From contig DASUWA010000062.1 of assembly GCA_036378675.1 (NCBI GenBank), positions 1-56,395 of the forward strand: a stretch of DNA of 56,395 nt. Direction: 5' to 3'. Position 1 is the stretch's first letter, and the number at the start of each line of letters is the position of its first letter. The notes below the pieces were generated by a model. That model saw only the letters and a program-made list of their open reading frames with translations. It did not search any database and was not told the DNA's origin. The DNA is from Acidimicrobiales bacterium. Lineage in GTDB: Bacteria > Actinomycetota > Acidimicrobiia > Acidimicrobiales > Palsa-688. Shown here piece by piece: positions 16,797 to 21,324 of this stretch. Both the position numbers and the translations under genes were made by a program.

Positions 16797-17216
16797 TTGG
16801 CGCAGTACGAGTTCCTGAGCGACGAGTGGTTGGCCGAGGCGCGCAAGATTCGGGAGGAGTACCACGGGCGAACCCCTCAGATCCCGGTCGCGGTCCGCAT
16901 GAACCAGATAATCCAGGACGTCCCATTCGGTGAGGGCGTCATTCACGCTCACGTCGACACCTCCAGCGGCGAACTTCAAATGGAGACCGGGCACGTCGAG
17001 TCTCCGGACCTGACCATCACCCTTCCCTACGCGACCGCCCGGGCGATTCTCGTCGACGGGGACGCCCAGGCGGCTATGCAGGCGTTCATGTCCGGCCGGA
17101 TCAAGGTCGACGGTGACATAACCAAGATGCTGGCGCTTCAGACCGCGGGTATGGCGAGCAACACCGATCCCGCCGCTCTCGAACTTGCCAAGAGGCTGCA
17201 GGACATCACCGCTTGA
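16797..17216 (+). CDS. SCP2 sterol-carrier-domain protein
   Basis: 139 residues, essentially one SCP2 domain: a hydrophobic lipid-binding fold with the typical central stretch P-D-L-T-I-T-L-P-Y and the C-terminal G-D-A-Q-A-A-M-Q-A-F-M-S-G-R-I-K-V-D-G-D. Such proteins bind acyl-CoA, lipids or other hydrophobic ligands; the ligand here is unknown. The start is TTG 16797, chosen because GGGGAGAG lies at good distance and the next in-frame starts would remove conserved sequence. Its 3' end overlaps the convergent LWSGP-repeat gene by 11 bp. Confidence 0.85.
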   Translation: MAQYEFLSDEWLAEARKIREEYHGRTPQIPVAVRMNQIIQDVPFGEGVIHAHVDTSSGELQMETGHVESPDLTITLPYATARAILVDGDAQAAMQAFMSGRIKVDGDITKMLALQTAGMASNTDPAALELAKRLQDITA

Positions 17217-18324
17217 CCGTTCGCCGGCGCCAACCCAGCCGAGCCAGGGAAAGCGCTATGCCAGCGGATCCGACAGCGAGTAGCAGCAAAGAGTCGAGAG
17301 CGACGATCCAGGCGGGTGGACCGCCCTTTCCGACATGGCCGCCAGACAGCACCGACCCATGTGCGCGGGCGGCCGGAGTGACGGTCGAGGTCGCGATCAC
17401 CCGCGAGACAACGGACGTCCCGACGGAGATCGTTGCTGCGAGCTGGTAGCAGCCGCTGGCAATCCGGTGTCCGATCGCCCACTGGTAGGCGATCGAAGTG
17501 TGCGGGACGAACGTGTCGAGCTGGCGGCGGAGCTCCGATACGGGGGCTGCGGAACCGCAGCGATGCAACGTGGCGGTTACGTAGGGCTTGCTGAGCAGTG
17601 ACCCGGCGTCGTTGATCGGGATGCGAACGACTTGGCCGGCTTTGCCAAGGGTGACGATTGTGGGCGTGCCCAGATCGAACGAGACGGATCCGGGCCCCGG
17701 AACGTGTGCCAGCACCGCCAAGACGACTCGGGTCGCGGCGGGCGTCGAGGGGCTCTGCGCGGCCACCCCTGCGAGGTAGTCGCCAGGCGCTGTTCCAGTC
17801 GGGATCATGACCGTGAATCCGATCGGGTGGGACTGTCGCGCGTCGAGGGTGACCGTTCCTGCGTCAAGCTGAACCCATCTGCCGGTGTCGTGCAGGGAGC
17901 CGCCGAGCGCGCTGTAGATCACCCCGCCGCCGCTCGCCGTCGCAGCGTCGGCGGGATAGATATCGAACGTGGCGGGGGTGGACGACGGGTTCGTGATGGT
18001 CACGGTGCCTCGGACCGCCTGGCCCGCCGAGGTGGTCCACTCGAAGTAGCCATGCGGACCGGGGTCCTGCGGCGACATCTCGGGTGTGGGCGTCTGTTCC
18101 GGCTGTGAATCGGCGGCCAGCGCTCTGCCCGACCACAGAGGGCCCGACCACAGAGGGTCCGACCACAGAGGGCCCTGCCACAGGGGGCCCGACCACAGAG
18201 GGCCCTGCCACAGGGGGCCCGACCACAGGGGGCCCGACCACAGAGTCGCAGGCGCCAGGGCGAACATCACCGCACAAAACCGGAGGATCCGGGCGAACAG
18301 TGGCGTGGCGCGGCACGCAGCCAT
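17206..18324 (-). CDS. DUF916-like surface protein with N-terminal LWSGP repeats
   Basis: 372 residues. A hydrophobic N terminus (I-L-R-F-C-A-V-M-F-A-L-A-P-A) leads into eight copies of L-W-[SQ]-[GD]-P (residues about 28-67), then A-L-A-A-D, a likely signal-peptidase site. The body is an immunoglobulin-like, DUF916-like region (V-R-G-T-V-T-I-T-N-P-S, then F-D-I-Y-P-A-D-A, and G-F-T-V-M-I-P-T-G). Near residue 340 is one transmembrane helix (A-L-D-S-L-L-L-L-A-V-G-S-A-G-I-A-L) followed by basic residues. Overall a type I membrane-anchored wall protein, similar in plan to the one at 19236-20282. Divergent from the LuxR-type gene (283 bp between starts). Function unknown; the WxL-interacting role is inferred from DUF916 families. 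Confidence 0.65.
   Translation of the reverse strand: MAACRATPLFARILRFCAVMFALAPATLWSGPLWSGPLWQGPLWSGPLWQGPLWSDPLWSGPLWSGRALAADSQPEQTPTPEMSPQDPGPHGYFEWTTSAGQAVRGTVTITNPSSTPATFDIYPADAATASGGGVIYSALGGSLHDTGRWVQLDAGTVTLDARQSHPIGFTVMIPTGTAPGDYLAGVAAQSPSTPAATRVVLAVLAHVPGPGSVSFDLGTPTIVTLGKAGQVVRIPINDAGSLLSKPYVTATLHRCGSAAPVSELRRQLDTFVPHTSIAYQWAIGHRIASGCYQLAATISVGTSVVSRVIATSTVTPAARAHGSVLSGGHVGKGGPPAWIVALDSLLLLAVGSAGIALSLARLGWRRRTVKR
18131..18245 (-). repeat. 15-bp tandem repeat in the LWSGP gene
   Basis: About 7.7 in-frame copies of a 15-bp unit (plus strand GACCACAGAGGGCCC with variants). Copies alternate between gaccacag and tgccacag, giving S or Q at the third residue. Copy-number change by slippage would keep the frame and change the length of the segment between the signal hydrophobic core and the A-L-A-A-D site. 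Confidence 0.95.
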
Positions 18325-18607
18325 CCGAGAACGGGGGCGCGTCAGGCACGCCGGCCGTGGATTACGCCGCAGGCTCGATCGAGAAATTGCCCGGGATCCG
18401 ATCAGGGATCGGAGACTATTTGCTCATCGAGGCAGAGTCCGCCCCGCTGGCACGACTCGGGAACATCTCCGTATACAGGGGGATCAGTGCCAATACCACC
18501 CGAAGGGGTCATTTCTCGAAATAGTCCCTCATGCCCCAATGACGTCAAGCCGAAATATCCGATTAGCGGAACGTTGCCGGCGGATCCGGCAGGAAGGGAG
18601 CTGGGGG
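18325..18607. other. Divergent intergenic region of the surface-protein locus
   Basis: 283 bp between the LWSGP gene and the LuxR-type gene. It is less GC-rich than its neighbours and contains a GATCAGGGATC inverted repeat near 18401-18411 that could be a regulator site. I see no convincing -35/-10 pair with good spacing for either gene. An ATG at 18539 is in frame with the LuxR-type gene and would lengthen it by 23 residues. Confidence 0.35.
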
Positions 18608-19189
18608 GTGACCCGACCAGTCCAGACAACGAACAATGACCCGGAGACGAGCGGAGGTCTGCCGGACGCAGAAGGGAGCCTCGAGGCCCCATTCGGGCTG
18701 TACCGCCTGTCGCCGCGCGAGACCCAGGTCGCAATCCTCACCGCGGAGGGCCATTCGGCGGACGATCTGGCGTCGAGCCTGGGCATCCGGGTTGGGACCG
18801 TGCGGAACATTCGGCAGGCGTTGCGGCGAAAGCTCGACGTACCGGCGAGTACTCCTTTGAACGATGCGCTGAGCGGCATGTTCGGGACCATTCCCAAGGA
18901 CGACAATCCAGCCGCTGCCCTCATGAGCGCGGCCCGGCCGGCGGTCAGTGATAAGGATCGACGTGTACACCTTTCGGTGCGGGAGGCCATCTCGTCAGTG
19001 GGCGAGCTGGCCGAGCGCCTGAACGCCAGATCCGTGGCCGTTGCCGCAGCAGCGCAGCACAGCCGCAGGTCGGGCGATCGGCTTCTCTGGGAGTCCGAAC
19101 AACTCCGGGCGATTGCCGCTGACCTTCACGGTCTCGAGGAGCAAGCAATCGCCCGAGTCCGGGCTCATCTCGCCGCGGTTGCCGGCTGA
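18608..19189 (+). CDS. LuxR-type helix-turn-helix protein
   Basis: 193 residues from GTG 18608, chosen because GGAAGGGAG lies about 7 nt upstream. Residues about 30-90 match a GerE/LuxR-type HTH: Y-R-L-S-P-R-E-T-Q-V-A-I-L, A-D-D-L-A-S-S-L-G-I, and a recognition helix V-G-T-V-R-N-I-R-Q-A-L-R-R-K-L. No receiver or sensor domain is present. The C-terminal half is Ala/Arg-rich and helical, perhaps for dimerisation. It stands between the two halves of the DUF916/WxL-like locus and is the obvious candidate regulator, but this rests on position only. Confidence 0.7.
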   Translation: MTRPVQTTNNDPETSGGLPDAEGSLEAPFGLYRLSPRETQVAILTAEGHSADDLASSLGIRVGTVRNIRQALRRKLDVPASTPLNDALSGMFGTIPKDDNPAAALMSAARPAVSDKDRRVHLSVREAISSVGELAERLNARSVAVAAAAQHSRRSGDRLLWESEQLRAIAADLHGLEEQAIARVRAHLAAVAG

Positions 19190-19202
19190 CGGGCTTGGCC
19201 AG

Positions 19203-19270
19203 TAGCGGGCTGCCACCCTTAGCGGGCTGCCACCCTTAGCGGGCTGCCACCGTTAGCCGCCTGCCACTCT
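19203..19270. repeat. 17-bp tandem repeat at a stop codon
   Basis: Four copies of TAGCGGGCTGCCACCCT (19203-19219, 19220-19236, 19237-19253, and a diverged copy 19254-19270). The TAA stop of the leftward DUF916-like gene lies at the junction of copies 2 and 3. Gain or loss of a unit would change the C terminus (the extra unit is not a multiple of 3). It fills the convergent gap after the LuxR-type gene. Confidence 0.95.
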
Positions 19271-20282
19271 GCTCGTCATCCTCGTCATCCTTACGCCGGC
19301 GCCAAAGCAGGAACAGCAGCAACAAGACTGCGACGAGGATTATCGCTGAGATCACCGTGAGGATGATGAAGCTCGGCCCTCGGTGGTGACGAACGGGAAC
19401 GGCTGCGACCGGAGCCGACGAGGCGTCAGCAGCGGTCGGGAAGCTGATCGTCGCCACCGCTTCCCGGGTGACCTGGTCCGAGGTCAGCGTGACCGTGGCG
19501 GTCCATGGACCGCTCGGAATGTTCCGGTCGAGTGGGATCGTCACGGGTTCGGTTTGGCCTATCCCGAGGGTGGTCCCGAGCTTGGCGGGGAAGGGTCCCG
19601 CGCGCACGCCTCCCGGCCCGTTGGTCAGGTTGAGAGACCCGGAAAGGTCCAGCGCACGACCGCCGATGTTGCGCACGAAGGCCTTGACGTAAGGGGTCCC
19701 CGAAGTGTCTCTGGACGCGGTCAGAGAGTTGATGGTGAAGTCGATCGCCGGCGCGGAACCTTCCCCGACTGATAGGTACACACGGATCCCGACCCGGTTT
19801 ACTTCCGAGATTCCGGCATTCGTCGTCGCCGCGGGTGGTTGCGCCCACACAACGGCATATCTCTCGCCTGCGGAGGCATCGGTCGGCACTCGAATCGTCA
19901 CGGTTGCCGTCGCCTCTCCGTGGGCAGGCACGACGAGCGTGTTGGGACTGACGTTGATCCAAGTGCTCAGGTCATTGTTCTGTCCCTGTGGCTCGGCGAT
20001 GAAGTCACCGCCGTTGATGACAGCAGGGCCACCGTAAAGCTCGACGCGCACCGGGGCGTCAGCAGTGTTGGACACCGCCATTCGGCGAGAGATCGTCGCC
20101 CCCGGCCCAACGTGGTCGATGATGTAGATCCGAGCCCGCGGGTCGTTGGCAAGAGCGACGGGAGCTTGGGTCAGGCGGACGCCGATGTTTGGTTGCGTAC
20201 TCCCATTCGTCTGCGCGAACGCGCCAGTGGCCGGCGCAATAGCACCGGCCACTGCCAGAACGTACGCAGCGAGTCTTCGCAA
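19236..20282 (-). CDS. DUF916-like (WxL-interacting type) membrane-anchored surface protein
   Basis: 348 residues. Sec signal peptide (M-R-R-L-A-A-Y-V-L-A-V-A-G, cleavage near A-F-A-Q), two Ig-like beta domains, then a transmembrane helix (I-I-L-T-V-I-S-A-I-I-L-V-A-V-L-L-L-L-F) followed by R-R-R-K-D-D-E and a short acidic/basic tail inside. The first domain (I-S-R-R-M-A-V-S-N-T-A-D-A-P-V-R-V, then V-P-A-H-G-E-A-T-A-T-V-T-I-R-V-P) is DUF916-like. In Firmicutes such proteins hold WxL proteins at the wall. Here the gene starts 12 bp after the WxL-like gene at 20295, in the same direction, which supports a pair. Function inferred. Confidence 0.75.
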   Translation of the reverse strand: MRRLAAYVLAVAGAIAPATGAFAQTNGSTQPNIGVRLTQAPVALANDPRARIYIIDHVGPGATISRRMAVSNTADAPVRVELYGGPAVINGGDFIAEPQGQNNDLSTWINVSPNTLVVPAHGEATATVTIRVPTDASAGERYAVVWAQPPAATTNAGISEVNRVGIRVYLSVGEGSAPAIDFTINSLTASRDTSGTPYVKAFVRNIGGRALDLSGSLNLTNGPGGVRAGPFPAKLGTTLGIGQTEPVTIPLDRNIPSGPWTATVTLTSDQVTREAVATISFPTAADASSAPVAAVPVRHHRGPSFIILTVISAIILVAVLLLLFLLWRRRKDDEDDEQSGRRLTVAAR

Positions 20283-20294
20283 GATTCGGGAAGG

Positions 20295-20837
20295 CTACGC
20301 GACCGAGTGGGTGATGGTGCCGGTATATGTGCCTGCCGACTGAGATGGTGAAAGAGTGAATGTGACCGTCGGATCCCACGACACGGTGTTGCTGCTCGTA
20401 CCAGCCCATGCGCCGGCCGTGCCCGACGCGGCCATGGTCGCGAGCACCCCGGGCGTGAAGGTACCGATGCCGCTAGTCGAAGTAGCCGTTCCGGAGCTGT
20501 AGGCGATGCTCGCGTTGGTGACGGTCTCGTAGGTGGACGCACCGCCGGTCGTGAAGTTGGTGGAGATGACCGAGGCGGTCCATACGTCGGTGAGGTTGCC
20601 GCGGCTGTCGCTCACGGTAACGGTGCCGAGTTGATGAGCAAGAGTGAGCGTTCCCGGCGCGACCGTGCCCATGCTTGCTGTGGCCGGCTGAGAGATGCTC
20701 AGCGAACCCCCGCCCAGGACGAACGTCGTGGTGGTCCCAGTTGCCGAAGCTCCCGGCGCCAATGCAACCAGTGCGCCGGCGCCGATAGCGAGTGCCGGGA
20801 TGACCCGGATGAGCCGTGTGCCTCGTTTCGGTCCCAT
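20295..20837 (-). CDS. Secreted WxL-like domain protein
   Basis: 180 residues. Strong signal peptide (K-R-G-T-R-L-I-R-V then a hydrophobic core, cleavage near A-S-A-T). The mature part is Ser/Thr/Gly-rich with almost no charge. It has the two WxL-domain landmarks: V-S-D-S-R-G-N-L-T-D-V-W-T-A-S-V in the middle, and S-A-G-T-Y-T-G-T-I-T-H-S-V at the C terminus, though the second Trp is replaced by His. In Firmicutes WxL domains bind peptidoglycan without covalent attachment. Directly followed by the DUF916-like gene. Start ATG 20837. Confidence 0.7.
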   Translation of the reverse strand: MGPKRGTRLIRVIPALAIGAGALVALAPGASATGTTTTFVLGGGSLSISQPATASMGTVAPGTLTLAHQLGTVTVSDSRGNLTDVWTASVISTNFTTGGASTYETVTNASIAYSSGTATSTSGIGTFTPGVLATMAASGTAGAWAGTSSNTVSWDPTVTFTLSPSQSAGTYTGTITHSVA

Positions 20838-21324
20838 GCTGCCCTTACCCCCTTGGTAACGACTGGGCGTTTCCCCCGTCGAGAGCGATCTGCCCGATTC
20901 CGGCAGGATTATCGGGGCGACCCGGAGATCTTCTGAATGGCCCGAAGGGGCGGTTCACTCCGACCGGTCGGACTAGTCATGAGGCCGAAATGGGCTGCGA
21001 CCTGCGGATACGCGGTGAGCGGTCGCTCAACTGCGGTGTGCGTCAAGGGCGCGCCAAAACCCGTCCAAGCGCGAAAAAAGGTTCGAGGGGGGCGGCGGCA
21101 CCGGCAACGGCTGGGGATCGCTGCCTCAGCACGCCGCCCTCCTCGAACCTCAACTCACAGTGTAAGGGAACGCTGCCCGAGTGCAACCGTAAGCAGGCCG
21201 ATTCTCACAAGGAATTTCGGATCGCAACGTCGCACCGCCTGCGCCGAAATCGGCCTAATCCGACATACGCCTCAGGATTTAGCGGCGTGTGGGCCATCTC
21301 TACTGGCTTGACTGGCGACGCGTC
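20838..21324. other. 487-bp intergenic region upstream of the WxL-like gene
   Basis: No protein gene of normal size is supported. It holds a candidate sRNA or attenuated leader (separate entry), plus, close to the WxL-like start, two mutually exclusive small stems around 20890-20917 (CTGCC/GGCAG or CCCGAT/ATCGGG). TTACC/GGTAA (20845-20859) frames the G-rich sequence just upstream of the ATG. Together these suggest an RNA leader that may regulate the WxL-like gene. I could not match it to a known riboswitch. Confidence 0.4.
21074..21152 (-). ncRNA. Candidate small RNA or attenuated leader
   Basis: Leftward, TTGCAC (21181-21186) and TACACT (21159-21164) are 16 bp apart, a good promoter. About 7 nt later begins an RNA that folds into one long hairpin: a 17-bp outer stem (21080-21096 with 21133-21149, one mismatch), an inner G-G-C-A-G-C-G/C-G-T-T-G-C-C stem, then six U residues (complement of 21074-21079). 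The predicted length is about 80 nt. It could be a free sRNA, or a leader that ends transcription before the WxL-like gene 237 bp further on. A 29-codon ORF with AGGAGG before GTG 21132 runs through the hairpin. Confidence 0.4.

Follow-up and report, generated by a model that had tools for sequence, protein, structure and literature searches.

A conserved WxL-like/WxLIP gene pair of Actinomycetota in an Acidimicrobiales genome

The window analysed here, a stretch of 56,395 nucleotides, is one contig (DASUWA010000062.1) of the genome of an Acidimicrobiales bacterium (GCA_036378675.1; 4.1 Mb in 75 contigs). It carries one gene for a WxL-like protein (P1) and two genes for WxLIP proteins (P2 and P3). 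P1 and P2 represent a conserved two-gene unit in Actinomycetota, and the pair belongs to a real, conserved and little-described actinobacterial branch of the WxL/WxLIP system familiar from gut bacteria; soil actinobacteria are among its carriers. We consider it reasonably probable (roughly 0.6) that the two genes form an operon of this branch, whose second product would bind the first, hold it and display it at the cell wall. A first-pass annotation had read the locus as a WxL/DUF916-like surface system of four genes, including a regulator of its own; this reading is partly supported. The kinship with the WxL/DUF916 system that it proposed is upheld by profile-profile comparison, fold search and gene order, and the three surface protein genes do cluster as it described, with a gap of 12 bp between P1 and P2 (P2 downstream on the same strand), a C-terminal helix in P2 and LWSGP repeats in P3. 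The features of the pair are as follows.

20295-20837, minus strand: P1, 180 amino acids; small, putatively secreted WxL-like protein in which Trp86 (Trp-x-Ala) and the C-terminal His177-Ser-Val-Ala replace the two WxL motifs.
19236-20282, minus strand: P2, 348 amino acids, TTG start; WxLIP-type (DUF916-type) protein with two immunoglobulin-like (Ig-like) domains and a C-terminal membrane helix.
19794-19835, minus strand: P2 residues 150-163; loop modelled with low confidence and flanked by strands 139-148 and 164-172, a candidate hairpin for strand donation.
19278-19373, minus strand: P2 residues 304-335; membrane helix at the C terminus, with the Arg-rich tail LLWRRRKDDEDD after it.

The two genes travel together. 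Among 99 genomes of the order (own genome included), P1 is found in 11 and P2 in 15, and 10 of the 11 genomes with P1 also have P2. Of 296 genomes of the phylum (own genome included), 27 possess P1-type and 56 P2-type genes, with both present in 24 (Fisher p 7e-17, relatedness not corrected). A collection of species genomes was furthermore scanned with the P2 profile; 96 relatives were confirmed and 80 loci were kept (L184 and L187, which resemble each other, derive from a single genome). Because a single peptide pattern underlies the selection of these loci, they represent the P2-like branch rather than all WxLIPs. In 78 of them, P2 is immediately preceded by a P1 homologue on its own strand, and the other two begin at contig ends. 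Their hosts include Streptomyces, Micromonospora, Rhodococcus, Arthrobacter, Thermobifida and Acidimicrobiia. The analysis of single places in the phylum sample covered 46 of the 56 P2 genomes, the weakest places being left out (the genome count above used all 56). Here, 24 P1-type places reach E<=1e-14, and 20 of them are followed by a WxLIP match no more than 2 kb downstream; of the remaining four, three are divergent second copies next to a pair. Conversely, 19 P2-type places reach E<=1e-40 (two of these are pieces of one gene), and P1 is upstream at 17; the two exceptions are in genome G256, where a second WxLIP lies beside the first, and in G234.

P1 has a signal-peptide-like N terminus and appears, judging from profile comparisons, to be related to the WxL proteins of Firmicutes without being a strict WxL protein. 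The family alignment of 101 members, drawn from many actinobacteria, consists of P1 and 100 references (from 103 matches at E<=1e-3, minus one identical duplicate and the large proteins L190 and L193, whose E values exceed 1e-10). Its profile aligns with seven Firmicute WxL proteins over 134 columns at 96.4% (hhalign, E 1.3e-9) and with one WxL protein of Enterococcus faecalis at 89.4% (E 2e-6). In the controls, the same profile reaches 0.2% and 0.3% with one and seven Firmicute WxLIPs, respectively, and 8.2% with the P2 family; Firmicute WxL against the P2 family gives 0.2%. Single members match the WxL family PF13731 as well: 15 of the 101 at E<=0.01 (best 1.5e-6), and 7 of 15 in the order-level family (all 14 matches and P1 itself) at E<=1 (best 1.1e-4). 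The excerpted text of PMC9772566 describes for WxL an Asp-x-Arg turn ahead of the first Trp; the P1 family retains it (Asp in 92 and Arg in 93 of 101), its spacing being off by about one residue compared with WxL. Trp86 is invariant in the 101 homologues, and the residue at +2 is Ala (84), Val (11), Thr (4) or Ser (2), never Leu. P1 His177 aligns with the second WxL Trp in profile alignments with Firmicute WxL; this position is His in 91 homologues, Gln in 7, another residue in 3 and never Trp. The replacement of the second Trp by His, noticed in the first-pass annotation, is thus borne out, whereas the change of the first motif to Trp-x-Ala had been overlooked. Since relatives from the order have His, Thr or Gln at the second motif, His is typical rather than universal. 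With Trp-x-Ala in the first motif and His in the second, no WxL motif is left, and P1 should therefore be called WxL-like and not WxL.

P2 appears from its structure model to be a WxLIP in which both Ig-like domains are kept. The model (mean predicted local distance difference test, pLDDT, 83) consists of two Ig-like beta-sandwiches and a long C-terminal helix (304-346). Its best solved matches are WxLIP of Enterococcus faecium (9i25_C, Z 16.1 over 238 residues, root-mean-square deviation 7.3; 9i1y_B, Z 15.9), and Foldseek likewise ranks the E. faecium WxLIP entries at the top. The large deviation suggests that the two P2 domains sit at a different angle compared with 9i25_C. The claim that the partners have retained only the Ig-like part is consequently wrong for P2. 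In sequence, the P2 family is linked to the family of P3 at 99.7% (E 1.7e-25, profile-profile comparison), and the P3 family to Firmicute WxLIP at 97.9% (E 5e-13; 231 columns, across both WxLIP domains). The order-level P2 alignment comprises P2 and 11 of 16 matches (L084 and the weaker L089, L090, L092 and L095 were left out), and the larger one P2 and 67 of 81 references (14 frames were excluded as near-duplicates or as too long or too short). The C-terminal helix of P2 has a hydropathy of 3.31. A transmembrane-like stretch was found by hydropathy at the C terminus of 66 of these 68 P2-type proteins, and 65 of 68 have a Lys/Arg-rich tail after the helix. LPxTG is present in the last 70 residues of none of the 68, and Gram_pos_anchor matches two of them at E<=0.01. 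The single full-length E. faecalis WxLIP examined ends in the same way, with a hydrophobic stretch and then RKKR. A C-terminal hydrophobic helix with a basic tail typically marks a protein anchored in the membrane of the cell that makes it.

Several results weigh against this assignment. P1 alone has no match in Pfam and NCBIfam at E<=1, and the WxL motif is kept in 0 of the 101 homologues. Its model (pLDDT 75) has its best fold match with a glycosidase domain (Z 7.8), and no WxL chain is among the 50 matches listed. P2 reaches 12.5 bits with PF06030 (E 0.15), below the cut-off of 27.3, and the profile comparison of its family with Firmicute WxLIP gives 40.9%. The generic NPCBM_assoc outnumbers PF06030 among P2 homologues (10 vs 8 of 12, and 20 vs 10 of 68). 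Finally, genome G076 carries P1 without a P2 match. Foldseek returned no match for the P1 model better than E 0.03; searches of PDB sequences with the P1 and P2 profiles gave nothing convincing, and the same search with a large WxL-type protein gave nothing beyond fn3 domains. DUF3324 (HBD) has no match in P2 and is not among the families listed for its relatives (25 of 28 families for the order-level set, 12 of 12 for the 68-member set).

These family matches would agree with a generic set of secreted Ig-like proteins without mutual binding, in which P2 is an NPCBM_assoc/Fn3-like membrane protein, P1 an independent wall protein, and the gene order a matter of co-expression only. Indeed, NPCBM_assoc and fn3_5 (the latter also matches P2 homologues) fit about as well as PF06030, and P1 itself lacks a family match. 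Such a set is nevertheless unlikely: P1 immediately precedes P2 in 78 of 80 loci, P3-type WxLIPs likewise follow subunit-like genes, the WxLIP fold match of P2 tops the rest by 3 Z units, and a chain of profile matches leads from the P2 family via the P3 family to Firmicute WxLIP.

In the WxL/WxLIP reading that we prefer, P1 and P2 would be co-transcribed as an operon and both exported. The C-terminal helix of P2 and its Arg-rich tail would sit in the cell's own membrane, with the two Ig-like domains outside. P1, a predicted small beta-sandwich and putative kin of the small WxL proteins, would be bound by P2, most likely by a strand lent from the hairpin near residues 150-163; in this way P2 would fold, hold and display P1 at the cell wall. 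In the single-chain model, residues 150-163 have a pLDDT of about 51 (under 50 for 154-160). According to the excerpted text of PMC10599100, AlphaFold2 predicts that a hairpin of WxLIP inserts into WxL to form one of its strands, and constructs carrying the first WxLIP domain are poorly soluble.

Strand donation could also serve polymerization. P1 would then be a fibre subunit and P2 a membrane-tethered assembly chaperone or terminator, the product being a thin surface filament built by strand exchange, a monoderm counterpart of chaperone-usher pilins. Next after WxLIP, the P2 model matches two-domain PapD-like pilus chaperones (Z 12.9 for YadV and lower), many of the 50 matches listed for the P1 model are pilin subunits (CfaE, CsuA/B, FimG, PapG, FimA) together with the cannula protein CanA (Z 6-7.3), and more than one P1-type gene is present in 23 of the 80 loci. 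However, Z values under 8 for P1 may reflect a mere common arrangement, and the top match is a glycosidase. No usher-like gene turned up, though no search aimed at ushers was made, and no conserved third partner of P1 and P2 recurs across genera among the top 14 neighbour clusters viewed, the largest of which are mainly common to Micromonospora loci. Furthermore, P1 is often single-copy, and P1-type domains also terminate larger proteins. We therefore regard a fibre as quite improbable. The same low expectation applies to a wider version, a monoderm relative of chaperone-subunit systems in which a tethered PapD-like P2 donates a strand and P1 units form either a surface fibre or mounts for cargo such as ice-binding proteins. 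If it were true, WxL/WxLIP and chaperone-usher systems would rest on the same principle and might have a common origin, and the helix of WxLIP would be no host-membrane device but would simply anchor the protein in the membrane of the bacterium itself.

Ice-binding domains are fused to P1-type domains in two of the five large P1-type proteins scanned (the other three have no Pfam match). The ice-binding protein of Cryobacterium (830 amino acids, L127 2428-4920) ends in a P1-type domain and is encoded between a small P1 gene and P2; that of Micromonospora (406 amino acids, L164 6609-7829) also ends in a P1-type domain, its gene being located after P2. For a pair that would display P1 at the wall, this suggests that it can serve as a surface mount.

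The pair is also found on plasmids. A Streptomyces plasmid carries P1 and P2 (L215 4791-6384). On an Arthrobacter plasmid (L214 4230-6919) the order is P1-type, P2-type, larger P1-type, with recombinase genes nearby; P2 homologues on Arthrobacter plasmids show 41-49% identity.

The remaining features around the pair are the following.

17206-18324, minus strand: P3, 372 amino acids; second WxLIP, of another branch, orphan here.
18127-18245, minus strand: 15-bp tandem array of 7.9 copies, coding for the LWSGP repeats between the hydrophobic N terminus of P3 and its mature part.
18608-19189, plus strand: stand-alone LuxR-type helix-turn-helix (HTH) gene, 193 amino acids, putative start; assigned by its GerE domain and position.
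20908-20937, minus strand: weak promoter-like site, 71 bp upstream of the P1 start, recognized solely by its match to the consensus.

By sequence, P3 is a WxLIP from a different branch, and no partner gene for it was found in this genome. It scores 33 bits with PF06030, above the cut-off of 27.3, and has a transmembrane-like stretch and the tail WRRRTVKR at its C terminus; its family alignment contains P3 and 6 of 11 matches. In G025, G031 and G028, the nearest P3 relatives come after a gene for a secreted protein, which in the first two has about 315 amino acids and a DSTGTG-GW motif, only its end being visible in G028 (where the P3 relative is split around an ambiguous base). Several other P3-type WxLIPs follow genes for proteins of 295-1211 amino acids, some with PF13731-type ends. 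The subunit gene of the nearest relatives has no match in the present genome (23 of 46 first-look candidates scored). P3 is thus an orphan as far as can be seen, because the divergent LuxR gene takes the place of the subunit gene and the subunit was not found in the genome. In the P3 search, 36 of the 99 order genomes match, but many of these matches cover just the repeats (query residues about 26-75) instead of the protein as a whole.

The DNA of the 15-bp array has no other match in this genome, and five-residue repeats like LWSGP occur in many order genomes and in a subtilase-like gene at G000:C51. In the order relatives L089, L092, L195 and L202, the P3-type WxLIP gene overlaps by 4 bp with the next gene downstream, whose product has ~300 amino acids and a C-terminal hydrophobic stretch. 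Another two-gene set is present in the same genome at G000:C55, about 61138-62857 (L230 1639-3358), where genes for a 353- and a 217-amino-acid protein lie 4 bp apart. The former has a signal-peptide-like start and no match with the P1 profile at E<=10; the latter is WxLIP-like (E 5e-12 with the P3 profile) and combines a single Ig-like part with a membrane helix.

The HTH protein has a GerE (LuxR) domain above the Pfam cut-off; we prefer the GTG start at 18608, after AGGAAGGGAG. The gene does lie between the surface protein genes by position, as annotated, but on the opposite (plus) strand and tail to tail with P2, with 46 bp between their 3' ends. It faces P3 head to head, with 283 bp between the two starts. 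The adjacency of the four genes and this divergent arrangement would be in line with a four-gene accessory surface system that includes a dedicated LuxR-type regulator. Against it, the protein matches 9 of the 99 order genomes (own genome included), through the HTH part, and the other eight have neither a P1 nor a P2 match; among the 80 P2 loci there is a single HTH match (L134, E 2e-4), 3.5 kb beyond P2; and the nearest P3 relatives carry a subunit gene upstream. We regard a four-gene system as very improbable. The survey of neighbourhoods in relatives, set beforehand as the refuting test of the annotation, separates its two parts: P1 and P2 are almost always found together, which is not the case for the four genes, and the four-gene unit was rejected. 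A dedicated regulator of the pair was rejected as well, as the HTH gene shares no operon with P1 and P2. The gene seems to be a bystander or, at most, to act on P3, whose control is possible given the head-to-head arrangement.

The four genes are flanked on one side by gatC, gatA, gatB and an SCP2-type gene and on the other by genes for a PASTA-domain kinase and the ligase LigA. The promoter-like site before P1 has 9 of 12 consensus matches (1 such site found vs 0.3 expected in shuffles). A 17-bp tandem repeat (3.8 copies) at 19203-19267 lies where the HTH gene and P2 converge and reaches into the 3' end of P2. A defence or phage origin of P1-P3 was also considered and dropped, as these proteins have no PADLOC match at E<=0.001 and no PHROGs match at E<=0.01.

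We found no title describing the actinobacterial P1-P2 pair in the literature searched, whose coverage is without preprints and most subscription journals, so that absence is not proven. The excerpts of PMC10599100 and PMC9772566 give a host-linked, mainly Firmicute picture of WxL: the system is almost entirely that of Lactobacillales and Bacillales (PMC10599100), and over 91% of 938 WxL sequences are Firmicute (PMC9772566), which means that some lie elsewhere. The WxLIP helix has been proposed to enter host membranes (PMC10599100, excerpt); a widespread actinobacterial branch with a basic tail after the helix (65 of 68) and ice-binding large members argues for a general surface-mounting role and a plain membrane anchor, and its hosts include harmless laboratory species that would allow testing what the helix does.

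Among known systems, chaperone-usher pathways (PapD/FimC/Caf1M; FimG, CsuA/B) resemble the pair in that P2 is a two-domain Ig-like protein (Z up to 12.9) and P1 a predicted beta-sandwich (pilins, Z up to 7.3). In contrast to their chaperones, P2 is apparently membrane-anchored; the likeness is one of fold, for P1 just of common arrangement, and no usher was seen. In the automatic annotation of NCBI, some Arthrobacter homologues of P2 are already called DUF916 proteins, a name only; the gene upstream is labelled hypothetical protein, as are many of the Streptomyces homologues listed, most of which bear either this name or that of peptidase. The closest counterparts are the WxL/WxLIP clusters of Firmicutes (PF13731; PF06030 with DUF3324; Csc), as far as the excerpts of PMC10599100 and PMC9772566 describe them. 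P1 shares with Firmicute WxL the predicted beta-rich, secreted make-up, the Asp-x-Arg turn and the first Trp, and P2 shares with Firmicute WxLIP the two Ig-like domains and the C-terminal helix; the genes are close together in both, and some actinobacterial relatives (e.g., L127, L214) have small and large subunits, as Firmicute clusters do. In contrast to Firmicute WxL, the P1 family has lost both motifs (Trp-x-Ala and His-x-Val). P2 is only weakly similar in sequence to Firmicute WxLIP and has DPRARIYIIDH at the place corresponding to NQIDKxxxYFDLK, a motif it does not contain. Unlike the Firmicute clusters, the actinobacterial system is a two-gene unit in most loci, and free-living actinobacteria are among the hosts in named records.

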